The notes under the pieces are model-generated. The model had not been told where the DNA came from, did not search any database, and worked only from the letters and a program-made list of their open reading frames with translations. From contig LR134390.1 of assembly GCA_900637705.1 (NCBI GenBank), forward strand, positions 1,426,001 through 1,490,000: a stretch of DNA of 64,000 nucleotides. The letters are read 5' to 3'. Positions 21,568-61,072 of this stretch are shown here, piece by piece (the stretch's first letter is position 1; every line of letters starts with the position of its first letter). The translations under genes were made by a program, and so were the position numbers. The stretch comes from Fusobacterium varium. GTDB lineage: Bacteria; Fusobacteriota; Fusobacteriia; Fusobacteriales; Fusobacteriaceae.

Positions 21568-21920
21568 ATTGAATAGGAACTAAATAGTTCTTAAATTATT
21601 TTATATTTAAATGTTTGGCTGGTTTAAAATATTGAATAATAGCTTAGAAGTCTTTAAATTTAAAAAATATGGAAATTTCAGTTGAGGAAAATAAAAATTG
21701 AATAGTAACTTGGTAGTTTTTAAATACTGTACAGTTGTAAGCTTTTGCTTTGCTGTAGCATATTGAATAATAACTTAGAAGTCTTTAAATTAATAAGTTT
21801 CTGGTACATCAAAATAATAATCTTTTCTAAAATATCAACTTGGAAATATCTAAATTTCATTAAAAGATTGGGAGATAGGATTATAAAAATATTGAACAGC
21901 AACTAAAAGTTTTTTTAAAT
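21568..21920 (+). CRISPR. decayed CRISPR array (six degenerate repeats), no cas genes nearby
   Basis: Six copies of a 29-bp unit of the form ATTGAATAA.AACTTAGAAGTCTTTAAAT occur at about 21568, 21631, 21697, 21762, 21827 and 21891, spaced 63-66 bp. They match the reverse complement of the repeats at 49.6-51.2 and 60.3-61.1 kb with several mismatches each, while the intervening sequences are unrelated. Both loop variants (TAGA and TGGT) are present. It lies 28 kb from cas2. Best read as an eroded relic of the same CRISPR system. Confidence 0.8.
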
Positions 21921-45024: not shown

Positions 45025-45462
45025 ATGAAAGAAAAATATCTTATTGTCAATAAAAAAATACTTCCAGATTACTTTGAAAAAGTGGTTGAAGCTAGAAATC
45101 TTTTAACTGAAGGTAAGGTAAAAGGGATAAGTGATGCTGCAAAAATTGTTGGAATCAGTAGAAGTACTTACTATAAATATAAAGATTATGTATTTCTTCC
45201 ATCTGACAACAGTATAGGAAGAAAAGCTCTTGTGTCCATGATGCTTGAACACAAAAAAGGTGTGTTATCTGAAGTCCTTAATTATCTCTCTTCTGTAAAT
45301 GGAAATATAATTACAATAAATCAAAATATTCCCATAAATGATGTTGCATCAGTAGTAATATCTTTGGATATCTCAGATATAACTATTCCTATTGAAGATA
45401 TAATATCAGGAATAGAACAAATAAATTATGTAAATTCAACAAAGCTTCTCTCGTTGGAATAA
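45025..45462 (+). CDS. ACT-domain protein (PheB/UPF0735-like)
   Basis: A 145-residue protein: an N-terminal helix-turn-helix-like segment ('ISDAAKIVGISRSTYYKYKD') followed by an ACT domain ('MMLEHKKGVLSEVLNYLSSV'). This layout fits the PheB/UPF0735 family, which may sense an amino acid. It is the last gene of thrC-thrB, so feedback sensing of threonine-pathway amino acids is plausible (inference). AGGAGGAGATT precedes the ATG. Confidence 0.85.
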   Translation: MKEKYLIVNKKILPDYFEKVVEARNLLTEGKVKGISDAAKIVGISRSTYYKYKDYVFLPSDNSIGRKALVSMMLEHKKGVLSEVLNYLSSVNGNIITINQNIPINDVASVVISLDISDITIPIEDIISGIEQINYVNSTKLLSLE

Positions 45463-45482
45463 TAATCAAAAAAATAAATTTT

Positions 45483-46445
45483 ATTTTTTTAATAACTTGG
45501 TGTAAATTTCAAGTTCTAATTCTATTTTATTATTAAATAATAACTTTAGAGAGTTTTAAATTTATTATAGAACTTCCTAAATCATATTATTTTATTTATT
45601 TAAATAGTAATTTGGCAATTTTAAATTACTTTATTTCCTAGTAATATTTCATAATAATTAATTGAATAATAAGTTAGAAATTTTTAAATACTATTAATAT
45701 TTATTTACTTTCTTTATATAATTATTAAATGATAAATTGATAGTTTTTAAATGAAGAAAGTATGTTAAGATATAGAAGTATTATTAGAATAGAATAATAA
45801 CTTAGAAGTTTTTAAATGAAGAAAGTATGTTAAGACATAGAAGTATCATTAGAATATAATAATAACTTGGTAGTTTTTAAATGAAGAAAGTTTGCTAAGA
45901 TATAAAAGTATTATTAGAATAGAATAATAACTTAGAAGTTTTTAAATGAAGAAAGTATGTTAAGACATAGAAGTATCATTAGAATAGAATAATAACTTGG
46001 TAGTTTTTAAATGAAGAAAGTATGTTAAGACATAGAAGTATCATTAGAATAGAATAATAACTTGGTAGTTTTTAAATGAAGAAAGTATGTTAAGACATAG
46101 AAGTATCATTAGAATAGAATAATAACTTGGTAGTTTTTAAATGAAGAAAGTATGTTAAGACATAGAAGTATCATTAGAATAGAATAATAACTTGGTAGTT
46201 TTTAAATTAGGTAATAAAATAATTAACTTTACTCTTTTCAATTTTCAAACTTAGAAGTTTTTAAATGGCTTCTAGTATAGATTAAAAAATTTACTCCTAT
46301 TGTTGAATAGTAACTTAGAAGTTTTTAAATATAGTTTCTTTTAATAAGTCTACATATTTTTGTTCGTTGAATAAGTTTCTAAATCAGAGATTAGATATCA
46401 GATTGATGATAGAAGGAAAAATTGAATAATGATTCATAAATTTAT
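45483..46445 (+). CRISPR. decayed and tandemly amplified CRISPR array
   Basis: About sixteen copies of a 29-bp repeat related to GTTGAATAGTAACTT..AGTTTTTAAAT occur here, in the opposite orientation to the arrays beside the cas genes. Those at the left (45483-45689) are degenerate, spaced 63-65 bp, with unrelated intervals. The middle copies are a satellite (see separate entry). At 46302-46330 one copy is a perfect consensus repeat. The last two copies (46366, 46421) are truncated. No gene is found in 45463-46730; a terminator closes the region at its right. Confidence 0.85.
45724..46207 (+). repeat. 65-bp CRISPR-derived tandem satellite (about 7.5 units)
   Basis: Repeat copies at 45724, 45789, 45854, 45919, 45984, 46049, 46114 and 46179 are spaced by exactly 65 bp and are separated by essentially the same 36-bp 'spacer' (GAAGAAAGTATGTTAAGACA then TAGAAGTATCATTAGA). 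The repeats alternate between the TAGA-loop form (45789, 45919) and the TGGT-loop form (45854, 45984 onward). A normal array has different spacers, so this is amplification of one repeat-spacer unit. Confidence 0.9.
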
Positions 46446-46492
46446 AATTATAATGACTGGTAAGATAAAAAAATAGTAATTTTTCAATAATT

Positions 46493-46552
46493 AGGAACTG
46501 CTGCAAATTGATGATTTTTTATCATTTATTTGAGCAGCTCCTTTTTATTTTC
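46493..46552 (+). terminator. long-stem terminator right of the decayed array
   Basis: AGGAACTGCTGCAAAT.GATGA pairs with TATCATTTATTTGAGCAGCTCCT, followed by TTTTTATTTT. Between 46553 and 46730 only AT-rich sequence is present. Confidence 0.75.
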
Positions 46553-49640: not shown

Positions 49641-51224
49641 ATTTAAAAACTTCTGAGTTACTATTCAACTTTGTAACAAATAGCAGTAGCAGTAGTTATA
49701 TATGATTTAAAAACTTCTAAGTTACTATTCAACTTTTTCCTAGCAAGAAATATAATTTTATAAGTTGGTATTTAAAAACTTCTAAGTTACTATTCAACAA
49801 TTTGAAAAATGAAGTTAGAAAAAATAATACTTTTATTTAAAAACTTCTAAGTTACTATTCAACCACCTGCACATGAACCATTTTGTTTTATTAATTCCAT
49901 TTAAAAACTTCTAAGTTACTATTCAACGATTACAGGATATAAAATATTAGACAAAATAAGAATATTTAAAAACTTCTAAGTTACTATTCAACGATTACAG
50001 GATATAAAATATTAGACAAAATAAGAATATTTAAAAACTTCTAAGTTACTATTCAACTAAAATAGATAGTGCAGTAATGGATTTTATTAATGGATTTAAA
50101 AACTTCTAAGTTACTATTCAACAAATTAATTGCATTTTTAAAGTTAAGGGGGTAAAAATTTAAAAACTTCTAAGTTACTATTCAACTCAAACTTTCAGAG
50201 CTGGTACTTTTATATCTGAATATTTAAAAACTTCTAAGTTACTATTCAACTTGACTACAGAAGAAATGAACCTAAAATTTCAAAAATTTAAAAACTTCTA
50301 AGTTACTATTCAACAGCATACAAAGAAATAATAATGGCTAGAAAGCTGTAATTTAAAAACTTCTAAGTTACTATTCAACTCTGTTCTTTTTTTTCTTAGC
50401 TTTATTTCTCCTTTTATTTAAAAACTTCTAAGTTACTATTCAACATCCATGCATCTTTAAAAAAATATGAATTTACATAATTTAAAAACTTCTAAGTTAC
50501 TATTCAACTGGACATAAGAAAAAATATTCTTATAGAACAGGGAGAATTTAAAAACTTCTAAGTTACTATTCAACTAGTAAATAAGCTTCTGGACTATAAG
50601 TTATATTTTTAATTTAAAAACTTCTAAGTTACTATTCAACTTTTCATGACTTACATTTTCATAATGATTTTCAAATATTTAAAAACTTCTAAGTTACTAT
50701 TCAACCTAATTGAGTTTCTTTAATTTTTACTTTAAATTTCAATTTAAAAACTTCTAAGTTACTATTCAACTACATTTACACCTCTATACCCTGCAACACC
50801 TAAAAAATTTAAAAACTTCTAAGTTACTATTCAACTATGGAAAAAATATTGAATGTGGCTCAGTATATTTTATTTAAAAACTTCTAAGTTACTATTCAAC
50901 CTAAACATCTTATCTGGAACTGATAATATTTTTTCTATTTAAAAACTTCTAAGTTACTATTCAACATATCTAAATGTTCTAACTTCTTTATTAGAATACC
51001 TATTTAAAAACTTCTAAGTTACTATTCAACTAAGTTAGATAAACTAAATAAGATAGAGGATATGCCATTTAAAAACTTCTAAGTTACTATTCAACACCTT
51101 CCATTGCTCCTGACTTAGTAGTACATAACCCATTTAAAAACTTCTAAGTTACTATTCAACTAGAAATTAGGAAGATCAGTACTTCTATTGTTCAAATTTA
51201 AAAACTTCTAAGTTACTATTCAAC
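49641..51224 (-). CRISPR. CRISPR array A, 25 repeats (TAGA-loop type), leader on the right
   Basis: Twenty-five 29-bp repeats, read on the minus strand as GTTGAATAGTAACTTAGAAG then TTTTTAAAT, separated by 24 spacers of about 35-37 bp. The leftmost copy (49641) has a substitution (CTGAG), the usual sign of the leader-distal end. Spacers between repeats 5-6 and 6-7 are identical (GATTACAGGATATAAAATAT...). The central AACT-TAGA-AGTT forms a hairpin. Transcription is inferred leftward, in the cas direction, because the conserved leader lies at the right and the 3' handle would be TTTTAAAT. Spacer targets were not searched. Confidence 0.97.
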
Positions 51225-51394
51225 ACTCATCAAATCAAGCTCGTTATTATTAATTAATATCTTCAACTATGATTTTATCAGGATTTTCTTTCTATTTTTC
51301 CAAGCTTACTAGAATTTTTATCAAATAAATTTTTTCTTCTCAATCCCTTTTAAAATAATTATTTGATAAAATTATTAGCTTTTGGACTTGGAAA
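51225..51394 (-). promoter_or_regulatory. leader of CRISPR array A
   Basis: This stretch is homologous over about 125 bp to the right flank of array B (61073 onward): both begin CTCATCAAA and share TTTTTCCAAG, AATTTTTATCAAA and a TTTTTTCTT..CTCAAT block in the same order. Conserved leaders hold the array promoter and the spacer-integration signal. It lies directly downstream of cas2. Confidence 0.8.
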
Positions 51395-51952
<558 letters not shown>

Positions 51953-52838
51953 CAAAAGTTTCATTCATTCTATCTTCTAGAGCTCCTAAAAATATTTTTT
52001 TCCCATCTTCATTCAAAATACAATAGTTCAAACTTTTTTCAAAATGTTTTTCTACATTTAATTTCCTATTATTTACACAATCAAAAATAGTTCTAAATAC
52101 AATTATTGGTTTAAATACCTCTGATAAATCTAAAGATAGTGAAAATCTTCTTTCAGATGGAGAATGTAAAAAACTTATTGTCTGTTCTAGGTGTGTTTGA
52201 TAAATCTGACCAATAGTTTTAGTATATAGAATTGAATTCCCAAAAGAAATTAAAGCATTTATTGGGTTATCTGGTGGTCTTTTGACTCTTTTATTTAGAA
52301 TAAAATCTTCTCTCAAAAAAATTTTAAAACTATCATAAAATTTAGCCCAAATTTCTCCCTCAACAGCCATTATTTCATTTATATCTGAACTTTTATTCAA
52401 TCTTTCTTCTACTTCATTAGAAAGCCAATCCAAATATTCTTTTAGTTCTTTTTTATCATGACGATAGTAGTGATACAGCAATTCATAAATATTCTTTCCG
52501 ATACCATTAATTATACTTTTAGCAATTTTTTCTTTGTAGAGCTTATGGGCTTCTACTTGTTTTATCACCAGCTTTCCGCTTACATATTTTTCTCGGGGAT
52601 AAAAAGTTCCAGAGTATCCTTCATAATGATTAAAGAAATGTAATACTATTCCATGTTTAGCTAAAAAATCAAAAAGTTTTGTATTTACAGAAATTTCATC
52701 TAACGCAAATATTTCTTTAACACCTTCAATGGGAATATATGTTGTTTTACTTTCATTTTTAAAACACAGTGAATTATCTTTTCTTTCAAGAGTTCCTTTA
52801 CTCAAAATATACTTTGTCCCAGCTCCCATATACACTCC

Positions 52839-53321
52839 TTAAATGTAGCAATATGAATAATATGCACATTTTTTACATTTATTATTCTTCTCAATTGGTG
52901 GTAATTCATCTTCCTTAACCAATTTTTCTATTTCTTCCATTATATTTTTTATATGTAATTCATTTTCAGCAGTAAGTTCAATTTCATAACTTTTTCTTGA
53001 AGATTTATTTTTTTCAATTACTTCTATTTTTCCTTTTTTTACTATTCCTTTTTCTTTTAATTTCAGAAGGTAGTAAAGCACCTGCATTTTTGCTGCTTCA
53101 ATATCTGCATCTGATTTTTTTATTTCTATTAAATAATCTTTCTTTATCTTGTCCACTTTAATATTATCTACAGTTATTTCCTCTGTATTTTTTTCTTCAT
53201 GCATGGCTTTTCCAATTTTTACTAATTCACTTTCATCTTCCATATTTATTCTATTGTAATGCATATAACACTGTCTTTTACAATGAATATAATAATTTAT
53301 AATTGTTCCATTTATAGGCAT
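52839..53321 (-). CDS. cas4: CRISPR-associated exonuclease Cas4
   Basis: A 160-residue Cas4. Cysteines expected to hold an Fe-S cluster lie at 'YIHCKRQCYMHY' and at the C-terminal 'NKCKKCAYYSYCY'; the RecB-type nuclease core has 'LIEIKKSDADIEAAKMQVLY' (E-x-K and Q). It trims prespacers and checks the PAM for Cas1-Cas2. The start follows GGAGGGTAT. Normal length for I-B Cas4. Confidence 0.92.
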   Translation of the reverse strand: MPINGTIINYYIHCKRQCYMHYNRINMEDESELVKIGKAMHEEKNTEEITVDNIKVDKIKKDYLIEIKKSDADIEAAKMQVLYYLLKLKEKGIVKKGKIEVIEKNKSSRKSYEIELTAENELHIKNIMEEIEKLVKEDELPPIEKNNKCKKCAYYSYCYI

Positions 53322-53334
53322 ATACCCTCCATAG

Positions 53335-55910
53335 TTACAATATCATTTCACAATCATTCTTTGACTGCATTTTTTTTCTATCAAATTTTCCATTTACAAA
53401 ATATTCCTCTCCATCTTGAATATATAAGATATTATCTCCAATGCTATCCTGATAAGATAACCTATATGTCATTTCCTTAGGAATATTATATGAAAACAAA
53501 TCTACTTTTTCCATCACTTTAGACAGTTTTACTCTTCTTTCTGCATATCCTATTTCATTGTTTAAAAACACTTCTTTAAATTCTTTCCAAACCTTGTTTC
53601 CTTCTATCTCTTCTCCTTCTATTTTTATATTTCTAGAGAAAAATATCATCTTTGTTTTCATTTCATCTGTTATTAATTTCAATCTTTTATTTATTTCTTC
53701 AAAATTTAGCTGAACAACTTTATTTCTTCTAAAATTTTCTATATTCTCTTCATCTTCTTTATTCGAAAAATCATCTAATACCTCAAGAATTTTACTATAG
53801 TATTCACTAAAATTCTTACTTTTAAGAATTTCTCTCATCTCTTCATTCATCAGTGTAAATCTACCCTGTATTCTCACATCACTTTTATAAATTTTTCCTC
53901 CATCATCTAATTTGAAAAAATAAACTTTACAATTTTTTTTCTTACAAGAACGATTGATTCTTCCTAAAAATTGTTCATCAGCATCTAAGATAGATATATT
54001 TTTAAAGCCAATATCCATATCTATATCTACTCCAGCTTCAATTACTTGCGTTGCTACCAATATCATGCTTTTTCTTTTTTTATCTTTTGCTTCTTTTATT
54101 ATTTTTTTCTTTCAGCTTTATTATCATCACCAGTTATTAAAAAAATATCTTCTTTAGAATCTTCATTTTTTTCTACTAATCTCTTATAGAAATCAAATGC
54201 AGAAGATTTTTTAATAAATTCAACTACCACTTTTTTATCTCTATATTTTTCTAAAATAATTTTTTCTATCTGATCAAATAATTCTTCTTTCTCATATTCT
54301 TTTTCTAAAAGTGAAAAATCCAAAGATACTCTGTCTTTAAAAATTGGATTTCTATAATATTTTTCTTTATTAATTACAAGTGATGGGATTTGTGCTTCGC
54401 TGTTTAAAAGAAAAGATAAGTTTGGAAGAGTTGCAGACATAATTATTATTTTAATATTTAAAATTTCAGCATATTTTTTTAAGAAAATTATAATTTCTTT
54501 CCAGATTTTATTTTTATAGCTTTGAATTTCATCCATTATCACTACACTATTAGCTAAGTGTGGAAGAGCAAAACTGCTCTCCCTATCAATTCCAAATAAA
54601 TTTTCAAAGAAATGAACATGTGTTGTCAAAACTATTGGCGAATGGATAAACTGCCTGTTCAATAAAGATCTTTCATAATCTATTTGAGCTCTGCCATCTT
54701 CATTTTCAACTTCTTTTATAGGAGTTATCGAATTTATCACTGAAATATTTTCTTCCAAGAATGACCCTTGAAATATCTCTCTTAATGAGGCATTAGTTTG
54801 CTCTACTAAAGTATTAAATGGAAATATATAAAATATTTTATTTAACTCTCTATTTTTTTCTAACAATTTCAATGCCAAATTAATAGAAGTAATTGTTTTT
54901 CCTGAACCTGTTGGAGCTTCTAAAAATAAAATATTTTCTTTTATATTTTTTCCCAAATTTTGTTCTGCTTCTAAAAACATTTCACTTCTATAATAGTTTA
55001 TATTATCCTTTGAAAAAATTTTCCCTGTTTTTTGATGTAATTTTATTCCTTTATATATGTCTGTATTATTAAAAACAGATATATACTCATCAATGTTTGT
55101 CAGCAGATTTAGACTCTCTATTGGTTTTCCAGAACTATACTCACTAGTAGCATAGAAATCTGATGATACTAATAAAGAATATAATAATTTTGTGTAAATA
55201 TAGTAATCTACAGATTCCCAATCTTTAGTTTCTATAGAATTATTCCATTCTTTTTCTCCAATTTTTAATTGTTTCAATATCCTAAAGAGGTTTTTACTTT
55301 CTTTTATTAAGAAATTTAAGTTCGGGCAATAATTATTTACTTCTTCAAATAATTCTTTGTATTCTTCGTAATCTTTTATTATTTCATTAAAAAAATCTTC
55401 ACTTAAACTTTTAGTTGATGAATGATGCCTTGATATAATATAAGAATTCAATATAATAAAAATAAAACATTTTAGTGCTGTTTTATTATCTAATTTTTTT
55501 TCTGAATATAGTTTAAAAACTTTATTGCCAAAATGATCAATATATATTCTTGCAGATAAATTAGAATGTCTCTTACTTTGATATAAGTGCTTTCTGTCAA
55601 ATATTTTATTTTTCATTTTATCAATTTGAAAGTTTATATTCAACTTACCTATATCATGCATATATATTGTATTGACTATCATTTCATTCCAAAATTTCTT
55701 TGTGCTCTCATTTTCTCTCCAAAATTTATCTGCAAGTTTATCAAAAATTATTTTCAAATTTTTATCTTCATAGATTTTTTTGAAATACTTTATCACTAAA
55801 TCAGAATGTTCTAATAATGTTTCTGGATTCTTTATATCTGATATATGAGCTAAAACTTTATTTTCATCTTTTACATACTTTTCTATTGAAAAAAGTTCTT
55901 CTTCAAACAT
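53335..55910 (-). CDS. cas3: CRISPR-associated nuclease-helicase Cas3, frameshifted
   Basis: Restored length 858 residues. N-terminal HD nuclease: His35, 'MHDIGK' (85-86), His115 and 'SRHHSS' (162-163). Helicase: Walker A 'APTGSGKT' (332-339), 'DEIQ' (460-463), 'SATLP' (492-496), then 'ATQVIEAGVDIDMD' and 'LGRINRSCKK' in the second frame. The break is at 54102-54108 (coding A7): one more A turns 'KAERKK-stop' into 'KAERKKIIKEAKDKKRKSMI'. As written, the helicase lacks its second RecA lobe and interference would be lost. The start follows TAGGAGGAAT. Confidence 0.92.
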
Positions 55911-55917
55911 ATTCCTC

Positions 55918-56670
55918 CTAATAGAATTCTATTATTTGATTATTTATTTTTGCAAAATTACTTTTATCTTTTAAAATACATTTTTTATTAGTAAAAATTA
56001 AGCTTTCAACTTTATATTGATTAGAAATACTATCAAGAGAAATAGGTAATTTTTCTTCATATTTATAATCATATTTTATCTCATCTTCTTCTGATCCCAA
56101 TATATTAAATTCTTCCTCTAAAAAGCCTTCTATATCTTTTCTCAGAAATAGAGAATTTATTTCACTTTCATCTTCTAAGAAACTTTCTCCTTGAAGTACC
56201 TCTACATTATTTATTGTTGCCAAATGGTCATTTTTTCCAAGATATATTGTGTATTCAAATTTATAGTTCTCCATTCTTTCTTTTAATTCTTTATGAATAT
56301 CTGTATCTTCCATTTTTATAAAAATATCCCACTCTACATCTTCAAGCCACTGCTCTTTAACTATGAGATTTCCACCCTCTTCATTACTTGCATATCCTAC
56401 TGAATTATTAAAAATTTGAATTTTCTTTGAAAAACTCCCATTAGTATTTTTAGGCATGATAGAAATTTTTATATCTTTTAGTTTCTCATAAAATTCTGGA
56501 AATTCCTTTTCCCCTTGAGAATTGTATCCTTCATAGCCCATTACAGCTCCTAATAATCCTAATAAAGAAACTTTATGTATATGTCCATAAGAGAAATATA
56601 CATAAGAATTGACTTCTGGAATCTTAAAAAAAGCTGTTCTTCCACTTAAGGTAAATTTTAATATCTCCAT
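55918..56670 (-). CDS. cas5: CRISPR-associated protein Cas5 (type I-B)
   Basis: A 250-residue Cas5 RAMP protein. The start 'LKFTLSGRTAFFKIPEVNSY' and 'YGHIHKVSLLGLLGAVMGYE' (the thumb/G-loop zone) are characteristic of Cas5b. It caps the 5' handle of the crRNA in Cascade. It starts 3 bp after cas7 ends (AAAGAGGTATAATC precedes the ATG) and ends 8 bp before cas3. Confidence 0.92.
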   Translation of the reverse strand: MEILKFTLSGRTAFFKIPEVNSYVYFSYGHIHKVSLLGLLGAVMGYEGYNSQGEKEFPEFYEKLKDIKISIMPKNTNGSFSKKIQIFNNSVGYASNEEGGNLIVKEQWLEDVEWDIFIKMEDTDIHKELKERMENYKFEYTIYLGKNDHLATINNVEVLQGESFLEDESEINSLFLRKDIEGFLEEEFNILGSEEDEIKYDYKYEEKLPISLDSISNQYKVESLIFTNKKCILKDKSNFAKINNQIIEFY

Positions 56671-56672
56671 GA

Positions 56673-57626
56673 TTATACCTCTTTTCTAGTAAAGATATTA
56701 TATTCTTTAGCTCCTTTTATATTATGTTTTACTTTTACATTTAAAGTATTGTAGTATATCTCTACAGATAAAATATTATCTTTAAATTGATTTATAAGTT
56801 CATCAAATCCTAATTCTATTACATCATAATCTTTTTCTTTAGAAAATTTTACATATTGAGCTAATTCTGGAAGATAATATCCTTCTTTTACTTCTATAAA
56901 TAATGCAAACTCATTTTCACATCCTAACTTTGAGTTTGAATTAAAGAATGTAGCTGAAGTCAAAGCTGCATCTTTAAATTTTTTATAATCTTCTTCTGTA
57001 TACCCTTCAGTCATTCCCATTTTTACAAAATCTTTATACACTTGTGGATTAATTACAAATGGATAAAAATAATGAGCCTCATTACTTACTATTTTTGTTC
57101 CTAAAGTTGATTGATTGGCTTCTCCTTCTTTTTCATCCTTACTACTATCTCTAAATGGTGATAATATTTGCTGTTCTTCTGGATACGTATCAACATATTT
57201 ATTAAATCCTTGTCCTATTTGAACTGCTCCTGTAATAGATGCATTATTTTTCTCTTCTGCAAAAGTTGCTCCAAAATTCTTTACATCTATTGCTTTAAAA
57301 AGATTTTTTATTACATTAGTTTTATCTTTTTCCTCTTTTAAATTAGTTTCAAATATCTCATCATATCTTTCTCTTAAAGATTTAGGTCTTACTGCTATTT
57401 CTCCTTTTTTCCCTTCTCCACTATCTACTTTCAAACTTTTTATATACAGAACTTTTTCTCCTTCAGCTTCCCACATTTTTTTCATTGGATATTTTAAAGC
57501 TTTATCACTTCCAAAAGTTTCTCCAGATGAAATTGTTTTAGGATAACCTTCAAAATCTGCATTCCAGTTAGCCATTATTGATTTTACTCCAATTATTCCA
57601 TAAACTCTATTTTCATAATTATTCAT
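56673..57626 (-). CDS. cas7: CRISPR-associated protein Cas7 (Csh2, type I-B)
   Basis: A 317-residue Cas7 backbone protein of Cascade. 'NRVYGIIGVKSIMANWNADF' at the start, 'VDVKNFGATFAEEK'-like (IDVKNFGATFAEEKNNASIT) and 'GAVQIGQGFNKYVDT' are standard Csh2 blocks. The start at 57626 overlaps the cas8b stop (ATGAATAA) and uses the GGAAAGGAG within the cas8b end; an in-frame ATG 12 bp upstream is an alternative. Confidence 0.93.
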   Translation of the reverse strand: MNNYENRVYGIIGVKSIMANWNADFEGYPKTISSGETFGSDKALKYPMKKMWEAEGEKVLYIKSLKVDSGEGKKGEIAVRPKSLRERYDEIFETNLKEEKDKTNVIKNLFKAIDVKNFGATFAEEKNNASITGAVQIGQGFNKYVDTYPEEQQILSPFRDSSKDEKEGEANQSTLGTKIVSNEAHYFYPFVINPQVYKDFVKMGMTEGYTEEDYKKFKDAALTSATFFNSNSKLGCENEFALFIEVKEGYYLPELAQYVKFSKEKDYDVIELGFDELINQFKDNILSVEIYYNTLNVKVKHNIKGAKEYNIFTRKEV

Positions 57627-58062
57627 TCTCCTTTCCATTAATATCTTTATTTTCTTTATCTGTTTTTTCATATATCAATGATTCTGATAAATATCCACCA
57701 ATTATTAATCTTTTATTTCTTTCATTAATATTTTCATTTTCAAGTTCATATAAAGATAACAATGAAAATAGTTTATCAAACTTCATTTTACTCTTATCTT
57801 TATTTTCTTTTTCATATCGTTTTATAGCATAATTATATTTTTTATACATTGTTTCTAAATTTTGGTCTAATCTTTTCCTATTATTAACTTTTAAAATCGG
57901 ATTTATTAATTTATGAGTTTTTTCAGTTGTTCTATTTAAAGAAATAAAATAATCAACTATTTGTCCTACTACATAGAAGAATTCATCATCATTTTCTATT
58001 ATTCCCTCATTAGTCTTAAGAACTTCCCTAAATTTAGTCTTCATTTTTTGATAATTATCCAT
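57619..58062 (-). CDS. cas11b: predicted Cas11b small subunit translated from inside cas8b
   Basis: Within the last quarter of cas8b an ATG at 58062 follows AAAGGGGAAAAAACT, a good ribosome site where none is needed for the long protein. It would give a 147-residue, mostly helical, charged protein ('MDNYQKMKTKFREVLKTNEG' start), the right size for Cas11. Independent translation of the small subunit from the 3' end of cas8/cas10d is established for types I-B, I-C and I-D; its use here is inferred. Confidence 0.6.
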   Translation of the reverse strand: MDNYQKMKTKFREVLKTNEGIIENDDEFFYVVGQIVDYFISLNRTTEKTHKLINPILKVNNRKRLDQNLETMYKKYNYAIKRYEKENKDKSKMKFDKLFSLLSLYELENENINERNKRLIIGGYLSESLIYEKTDKENKDINGKENE

Positions 58063-59423
58063 AGTTTTTTCCCCTTTATTTATAAGACTTTCTTCAATAC
58101 TTACCATTAAATTAAACATGTCATATGCAGGATATTTATTTTCATTTTTAAATAGATAATTTTTTATTAATTCCAAAAATATATTTTCACAACTCTTAAA
58201 AAAAGCATTTAGCTCTCCTTTATAAATCAATTTAAAAAATGTTTCTTTATATTGATTTACTATATTTTTTACTCTTTCATCATATATTTTCAAATCTTTT
58301 GAATTCTCAAAAATTATTCCATAAAGTTTTCCATTGAATAAAAGGTTATTCAATTTTGCAGCTAATTCAGAATTCTTTTTATTGAACTTCCATATTCTAA
58401 TTTCCCCTTATCTCCATTTCCTAAACAATCCAATATTTTTATTTCAGGATAAATTTCAGCTCTATAATCTGAAATAATTTCATACCTCTCTACTGCACTT
58501 TCACTTTTATCTTTTCTTATTCTCAAGTAGTATCCAGTAAAATTATTGTCTAAAAATTCACTATCTTTCAAAGGAATTATTTCTTTTTTATCAGGTGAAA
58601 TATATATATTTCTTTTTCCTGAATTTGACATATTATAGAGATAATCAAAAAATTTCTTCTGCTCAAATACTTCTTCTTCATTCAATAAATAAGGAACAGT
58701 ATATTTCTTTTTCCTTGTTTTATTTTCTAAATATGGTTTTTTAGAATTTAAATTAAGGTTATTATTTGGTAATCCATAAGTTTCATTATCTATTATTACA
58801 TTATAATCTATACTGTTGTATATATTAGGAATAATATATCTCTCACTTTCTTTCTTATATTCTTTTATATCTTCATCAAAGAATATCTTGATATATTCCT
58901 TCCCAGCTTTTATTTCTTCTTTTATTTTATAGAGATTTGTTTTAATCCATTCTTGATTTTTTTGGATCTTTTCCTCTGAAGGTTTTCCTAATTTTTCTTC
59001 TAGTTGTGTATATACCCTTTTCTTTTCTCCTTTATCATATTTAAGAAATGGATTTTTTAAAATTTCATAATACTTTTCCATGCTTTCTTCTAGTTCTTTT
59101 TTCTTTTCACTTAGAACATTATTTTTAACAAAAAAAGATAAATAATTATTAGAATGGATTTGTTTCTTTCCATCAATTGGCTTATTCATATCCAACAATC
59201 TGCTTAAATAATCTCTTTCAGCTAAATATTCATAATCTTCTATAGTTCTTCTATTTAAATTCTCTTCTGATTTTTTTCTTCTTTCTATTTTTATATGACT
59301 ATAACTTCCATCACTTTTAACTATAAAATAATCTCCTGGTTCCAATTCATAGCTATCTGTTATAAATCTTTCTCCTTTTTGGTTGTATATCTCAGTAAAG
59401 ATTTCAACGCATTCTCGTAACAA
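57619..59423 (-). CDS. cas8b: CRISPR-associated protein Cas8b (Csh1), frameshifted
   Basis: Restored length 601 residues, normal for the Csh1/TM1802 large subunit of type I-B Cascade. Part one (353 residues) ends 'LEYGSSIKRILN'; part two begins in another frame. One more A in the A5 run (58376-58380) joins 'YGSSIKKNSELAAKLNNLLF'. The gene starts with TTG after GGAGGTGAGATTAT. It recognises the PAM and forms the Cascade body. The C-terminal half probably also yields Cas11b. Identification rests on position between cas6 and cas7, size and general similarity. Confidence 0.86.
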
Positions 59424-59441
59424 ATAATCTCACCTCCTCCA

Positions 59442-60137
59442 TTATACCCATCTCGGGTTCATGTAAGAAAATCCTCTCGCATTCATCTCACCTAAACCTA
59501 CACTCAGGCACAAAAAAGCTAACTTTTGAGCAGTTTCATTCTTTGCAATTCCTAGAGTAAGTTTATCCCCAAGCAGATTAATATTCTTATATTTTACTTT
59601 CACTGGAACTTTATTTTTAAATTCAATAAAATTAAATAAATCAATATTTTCATCTATTTTTTCATTAAAAATAGAATTATATTTTTTTATTATATTTAAC
59701 TTTAATCTATTTTCATATTCTTCCAGTGTAATATTTTCTCTCCAATAACCATTTTCTGTTTTAATTATTGTAGGTGTAACAGAAACAAGCTTATCAATAT
59801 ATCTGTATTTTATCTCTTTTTCTTTTATTATCAGCCCTTTTAATTCTTTTGTTATATTGTCTTTCAAATATTTCATAAAATGCTCTTTCAATTCCTTAGA
59901 GATAGTTCGTATCTGAACTGTATATATTTCTCCAGCATTGTATTTTTGGGCATTGACTTTTACCGGATAGAAAGAATTAAAACAATATTCTTTTACTTTT
60001 TTATCTTTATGATATTTTTTCCAATATTCACTCTTATCAAAAGTAGAATCTATGAGAGCTGCTATTTTTTCTATAGCACTATGTGATTCTATATCTTCCA
60101 ATAAAAAAACTTTTAATTCTAAAACCCAACTTTCCAT
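59442..60137 (-). CDS. cas6: CRISPR repeat endoribonuclease Cas6
   Basis: A 231-residue Cas6 with the C-terminal glycine-rich loop 'GLGEMNARGFSYMN'. It cuts the array transcript in the repeats to make crRNAs. As the first cas gene it follows AGGAGGGATGAA; a TATAAT at 60168-60173 is a possible -10, but the -35 is weak. It must process repeats with both tetraloop forms if both arrays are used. Confidence 0.93.
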   Translation of the reverse strand: MESWVLELKVFLLEDIESHSAIEKIAALIDSTFDKSEYWKKYHKDKKVKEYCFNSFYPVKVNAQKYNAGEIYTVQIRTISKELKEHFMKYLKDNITKELKGLIIKEKEIKYRYIDKLVSVTPTIIKTENGYWRENITLEEYENRLKLNIIKKYNSIFNEKIDENIDLFNFIEFKNKVPVKVKYKNINLLGDKLTLGIAKNETAQKLAFLCLSVGLGEMNARGFSYMNPRWV

Positions 60138-60264: not shown

Positions 60265-61072
60265 AAAATTTTTATTATAAGTTACTATTCAACTGTAAAA
60301 TCAATCATATAAAGACTCTCGACTTTGCTATTTAAAAACTACCAAGTTACTATTCAACTTTGATAAGAGGAGAGAGAGCTATTTTTTAAATATATTTAAA
60401 AACTACCAAGTTACTATTCAACCAGGTGAACATTTTGATAAAGTTTATGAGGAATACAAATTTAAAAACTACCAAGTTACTATTCAACAATGACTATAGG
60501 TTCTATATAAACTTAAAATTTTAAATTTAAAAACTACCAAGTTACTATTCAACTGGAATAAAAGGAAGTATGGCTGGAACATCTTTAAAATTTAAAAACT
60601 ACCAAGTTACTATTCAACTTTTTTAAGTGCATTTTAAGTGCAAAAATATAAAGAATTTAAAAACTACCAAGTTACTATTCAACTTTTTTAAGTGCATTTT
60701 AAGTGCAAAAATATAAAGAATTTAAAAACTACCAAGTTACTATTCAACAGAAACAATTCATCTATTTTTTCACTTTTATTAGAATTTAAAAACTACCAAG
60801 TTACTATTCAACAGAAACAATTCATCTATTTTTTCACTTTTATTAGAATTTAAAAACTACCAAGTTACTATTCAACTATTTACACTAATTTTTAAATTTA
60901 TCAAAATATTTTATTTAAAAACTACCAAGTTACTATTCAACAGGAAAACAACAAGAGCTTTTAAAAGAAGCTTTTTTAATTTAAAAACTACCAAGTTACT
61001 ATTCAACTGTTAGTTTTGCTTTTAATGTAGGAACTAAAGCATTATTTAAAAACTACCAAGTTACTATTCAAC
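60265..61072 (-). CRISPR. CRISPR array B, 13 repeats (TGGT-loop type), leader on the right
   Basis: Thirteen 29-bp repeats, minus strand GTTGAATAGTAACTTGGTAG then TTTTTAAAT, with 12 spacers of 35-37 bp. The leftmost copy (60265-60293) keeps only the last 15 bases, a sign of the leader-distal end. Two spacers are duplicated side by side (TTTTTTAAGTGCATTTTAAG... at repeats 6-8; AGAAACAATTCATC... at repeats 8-10). Repeats equal those of array A outside the loop. It lies directly upstream of cas6. Confidence 0.97.

Follow-up and report, generated by a model that had tools for sequence, protein, structure and literature searches.

A sevenfold spacer-repeat satellite, probably an amplified CRISPR unit, within a decayed array of Fusobacterium varium

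Tandem duplication of spacer-repeat units through misalignment between repeats is an accepted inference from many CRISPR arrays (PMC8047081, PMC11472070, PMC5641575). Consecutive identical spacers were recorded in 2,391 of 39,378 arrays; there were mostly fewer than three duplicates, and larger clusters, with more than five, were regarded as spurious (PMC7913763). Such clusters of identical 'spacers' are usually dropped as false CRISPRs (PMC7913763, PMC5294841), and here we describe one whose flanking sequence points to an origin in a true array. We consider it very probable that this locus is the relic of a genuine type I-B-family array in which one unit was amplified by replication misalignment or unequal recombination, and that it is neutral now.

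The window, a stretch of 64,000 nucleotides (G000:C1:1426001-1490000), comes from an F. varium genome of 3.30 Mb that is represented by a single contig. It contains a type I-B cas operon on the minus strand (51395..60137) with the genes cas2, cas1, cas4, cas3, cas5b, cas7, cas8b and cas6. Protein models matched Cas1b, Cas4, Cas3, Cas5b, Cas7 and Cas6 in this operon, and cas2 and cas8b were named by operon position and size through comparison with the sister operon. Two cas-adjacent arrays lie on the same strand. Array 1 (49641..51224) has 25 TAGA-loop repeats, 24 spacers and one tandem doublet, with leader-side sequence above 51225, and array 2 (60265..61072) has 12 TGGT repeats, one damaged terminal repeat and two tandem doublets. 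With a further doublet in one sister array, this makes four doublets in the sixteen array stretches compared, three of them in the window. Both cas3 (53335-55910) and the cas8b-like gene (57619-59189) are read here in two frames, with breaks near 54090 and 58375 respectively, whereas each is one open frame in the sister genome G008 (861 and 516 aa). As read, these frameshifts could reflect either real inactivation or sequencing error. At the cas1/cas2 junction (51657-51952) we also observed a 148-bp tandem duplication with one mismatch; the two genes are directly adjacent in the sister genomes.

The satellite occupies positions 45724..46207 on the plus strand, opposite to the cas operon and 3-15 kb from the cas-adjacent arrays. 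TRF called 45728-46207 with a period of 65, 7.4 copies, 93% matches, 0% indels and a score of 855. The block opens with a repeat at 45724-45752, whose loop reads TGAT (a decayed TGGT), and continues with seven 65-bp units, each consisting of one 36-bp spacer and one 29-bp type I-B repeat. Repeats start at 45724, 45789, 45854, 45919, 45984, 46049, 46114 and 46179, in seven exact 65-bp steps, and 65 bp is also the repeat-plus-spacer period of the cas-adjacent arrays. The same 36-bp 'spacer' is found with few changes in 7/7 units, and units differ from one another at 0-8 of 65 positions. The copies are integral spacer-repeat units with preserved repeat boundaries, indicating duplication of whole units. 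After the first repeat, the loops read TAGA, TGGT, TAGA and then TGGT four times. The preliminary description had reported both the seven exact steps with one shared spacer and the switching between TAGA and TGGT repeats; the former is borne out by the TRF call, the repeat starts and the unit table, and the latter proved real when the loop was read repeat by repeat. Its argument that normal adaptation is unable to yield such a block is supported as well, ordinary acquisition being at the leader end. Its picture of one CRISPR unit turned into a satellite stood as far as amplification is concerned but not for the satellite as a whole array, which is instead a block embedded in a decayed array of greater extent (about 45480-46450), where the spacers to its left and right are distinct.

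To score the decayed repeats, local alignment against the live repeats was used, with shuffled flanks as a control (95% level 29; top of 300 shuffles 37). The repeats at 45532, 45599, 45661, 45724, 46238 and 46302 scored 34, 34, 44, 36, 39 and 58, respectively. The left flank (45532..45723, plus strand) comprises the first three of these on a 62-67-bp grid with distinct spacers, and the right flank (46208..46330, plus strand) comprises a distinct spacer, the damaged repeat 46238, a further distinct spacer and a perfect TAGA repeat at 46302-46330. The flanking decayed repeats stay on the CRISPR grid and are separated by distinct spacers, which measure 33-38 nt where intact, whereas the satellite's seven are all one spacer. 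Farther out on the same strand lie a possible left remnant at about 45486-45512 (score 22, not above chance) and two right remnants within 46366..46449, a repeat lacking 10 bp internally (46366-46384, score 21) and a decayed repeat (46421-46449, score 24). Since the remnants near 45486, 46366 and 46421 are on the grid yet individually at chance level, they are counted as probable only. Compared by eye rather than by alignment score, the sequence upstream of the array is unlike the leaders at 51225+ and 61073+ or those of the sister arrays. Satellite repeats 2-8 have an intact stem and 3' handle, and the stem is lost in three of the flanking decayed repeats; the intact stems could reflect past selection or the copying of a younger unit.

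These features bear on whether the block is an unrelated minisatellite that merely resembles CRISPR. Like the tandem repeats described as 'false-CRISPRs' (PMC5294841), it has a repeat-spacer look and no spacer diversity, is found by TRF and lacks a leader of its own. However, false CRISPRs are recognized by an absence of spacer diversity together with at least five mismatches to real repeats, whereas the 29-nt repeats 2-8 of the satellite differ by 3-4 changes from the repeats of the cas-adjacent arrays 3-15 kb off; with repeat 46302 included, the range is 0-4 changes. In addition, and also unlike false CRISPRs, the satellite is flanked by decayed repeats with distinct spacers, at least five of which are very unlikely to have arisen by chance. 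Because the repeat is near the local CRISPR repeat and the flanks carry distinct spacers, there is good support for a true CRISPR origin, and we find a mere resemblance hardly credible.

Comparison of the seven satellite units revealed eight variable columns. Four of them, spacer columns 19 and 30 and loop columns 52 and 54, separate units 1 and 3 from units 2 and 4-7 with zero exceptions, and the changes in the remaining four are confined to unit 2 or to unit 3. Type A combines T19/T30 with the loop TAGA and is represented by unit 1 (45753..45817) and unit 3 (45883..45947, with three private changes). Type B combines C19/C30 with the loop TGGT and is represented by unit 2 (45818..45882, with one private change) and by four identical copies, units 4-7 (45948..46207). 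All lie on the plus strand, and the order is A B A B B B B, so that the linked unit types form a record of the duplication order. Since the loop varies strictly together with two spacer sites, the loop types did not move independently and gene conversion is unnecessary within the satellite.

The preliminary description had attributed the mixed loops to gene conversion or array fusion, an idea that is not needed inside the satellite, where the linkage of loop and spacer and the order A B A B B B B are sufficient. That conversion between, or fusion of, the two live arrays made the mixture has some points in its favor, in that the satellite has the very loops found in the two live arrays, a second relic in the window (relic A, 21568-21919) mixes TAGA and TGGT repeats among distinct spacers, and one sister array has a hybrid-looking repeat at the junction of two repeat types. 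Against this, the linkage is complete within the satellite and duplication of a doublet and a monomer suffices, which makes such an exchange unlikely as the source of the satellite's loops. An older exchange between arrays is possible, because TGGT and TAGA match the live loops exactly and two substitutions would be needed if one unit begat the other; gene conversion could also explain the older mixture of loops in the flanks. At 45486-45812 and 21631-21790, where decayed repeats are set among distinct spacers, the loops seem to alternate between TAGA and TGGT. A label shuffle over the left flank and relic A gave P of about 0.03-0.09 for a pattern picked after sight, and alternation is therefore not claimed.

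In place of the GTTGAATAG of the live repeat, satellite repeats 2-8 have ATAGAATAA, the sole exception being a private G-to-T change in repeat 3 (unit 2). The first satellite repeat and the flanking repeats differ from the ATAGAATAA form. Because the amplified copies share changes that are absent from the first and flanking repeats, the repeat appears to have been variant already before amplification, and the copied unit's repeat had probably drifted by then. ATAGAAT- repeats are present in sister arrays too, so that this polarity is not fully proven.

Based on these data, we propose that the repeats of the starting array belonged to the type I-B family that is also found in the arrays next to the local cas operon. 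Since it has no visible leader, it probably ceased spacer acquisition long ago, and its repeats would have drifted. One spacer and its following, already variant repeat would have been duplicated through replication misalignment or unequal recombination between neighboring repeats, after which the two copies would have diverged at four sites into types A and B. If the A-B pair was then duplicated and B amplified further, A B A B B B B would result. Slippage or unequal recombination is taken as the mechanism because of the duplication literature, the doublets in the compared arrays and the 148-bp cas1/cas2 duplication. Unequal crossing-over, the mechanism named in the preliminary description, fares no better than replication misalignment, as the two are inseparable by sequence alone; the amplification of the unit itself is upheld.

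The copy number merits separate consideration. If identical units had been mis-joined during assembly, the true number could differ, and units 4-7 are indeed identical over 260 bp, their count of four being that of the assembly; the two cas frameshifts could likewise signal uncorrected errors. On the other hand, the genome is one contig and the genes neighboring the satellite are intact. The block is not the product of a collapse, since units 1-3 are marked by private or type-specific changes and the flanking sequence is unique. We therefore regard an assembly artefact as improbable.

On one side of the satellite is the gene for an ACT-like protein (45025..45462, plus strand), preceded by threonine synthase and homoserine kinase, and on the other a convergent gene that was recognized as PTS-type by eye from its sequence. 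The same arrangement is conserved in three sister genomes, in which the ACT-like protein is 97% and the PTS protein 95-96% identical. The two genes are about 1270 bp apart here, against about 85 bp in G008 and 315 bp in both G009 and G010, and no CRISPR repeats were found in the matching gap of the three sister genomes. A scan of genome contigs with the ACT-like protein returned mainly Firmicutes matches and no close relative of this genome. Relic A (21568..21919, plus strand) is another small decayed array, in which the spacers are distinct and the repeat types run TAGA, TGGT, TAGA. It too is without counterpart at the matching site in the three sister genomes, where the boundaries were not cleanly resolved. 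Both arrays may have been gained here or lost in the sisters.

Further array remnants were seen beyond these sites. A third one, L139:1306-1464 (G000:C1:1503305-1503463), lies outside the window and has three TGGT-type repeats. L138:1907-3094 and L140:1123-2190 are seemingly the same array locus in two species, with the trailer TTTTTCAAATAAAAAAGAGAAGAACTGG shared and the repeats different. Two repeat types meet in L140 at repeat 1586, which looks hybrid, as recombination within a repeat would leave it.

The satellite spacer was searched against phages and plasmids, as the preliminary description had suggested, and no target was found. In blastn against phages, only chance-level matches were obtained (E 0.4 and above), and there was no match to plasmids. 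Exact 17-19-mers of the spacer in viral contigs extended to 27/36 at best, and an 18-mer spanning the junction gave ten single matches there, all with extensions below 27/36. A 26-mer of the spacer with up to 3 mismatches was found in 12 genomes of the genus only in the array itself. Within its own genome, spacer 17-mers with 2 mismatches gave 4 hits outside the array, compared to 3 for a reversed control pattern. The satellite had no match in Rfam. As a control, live array 1 was searched against phages and gave no convincing protospacer either, so the missing target of the satellite spacer says little.

We also considered whether the satellite might act as a decoy or high-dose crRNA source, in which seven copies would be transcribed, for example by read-through from the threonine operon, and cut by Cas6 into one guide that loads or titrates Cascade. 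Read-through is conceivable, since the array is co-oriented with the upstream threonine operon and just one strong terminator-like hairpin was detected, which has a U tract and lies downstream of the relic array (46493..46548, plus strand; -24.2 kcal/mol, z -6.7). A Cas6 gene is present, and the intact stem and 3' handle of repeats 2-8 would suit such processing. In contrast, the array has no leader, cas3 and cas8b are frameshifted as read, the flanking repeats have decayed freely, and the searches gave no target at up to 3 mismatches over 26 nt in the 12 genomes of the genus and at best 27/36 in viral contigs. Moreover, an A-U hairpin stands immediately past the upstream gene and may halt the read-through. 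Promoter-like matches (AAGACA-17-TAGAAT or similar) occur in most units, but overall they are no commoner than in shuffled sequence. A decoy or high-dose role is accordingly quite improbable, and there is only a slim chance that the dead array is a growing minisatellite whose read-through transcripts would be cut by Cas6 so that one guide in excess would occupy Cascade. Most likely the array is presently without function, and the earlier suggestion of a non-functional relic is the best reading of an array that has no leader and decayed repeats.

Apart from its duplication record, the locus is an ordinary relic. That record is a small natural one of how array units are copied after acquisition stops, and it is relevant to the open question whether arrays are rearranged in a RecA-dependent or a slippage-type manner (PMC8047081). 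Orphan and degenerate CRISPR arrays resemble it in having no leader, no cas genes of their own directly beside them and many repeat substitutions. It departs from them in its distance of only about 5 kb to a cas operon whose repeats are related, in the perfect state of repeat 46302, and in the amplification of a block, probably after drift had begun. As in the tandem spacer-repeat duplications described in other arrays (PMC8047081, PMC5641575, PMC11472070), the whole unit is repeated with its length and boundaries kept; in contrast to those reported, which mostly have fewer than three copies (PMC7913763), there are seven copies of two diverged types in a leaderless, decayed array. The satellite is thus the extreme outcome, in a dead array, of tandem spacer-repeat duplication, a copying error that is already known.
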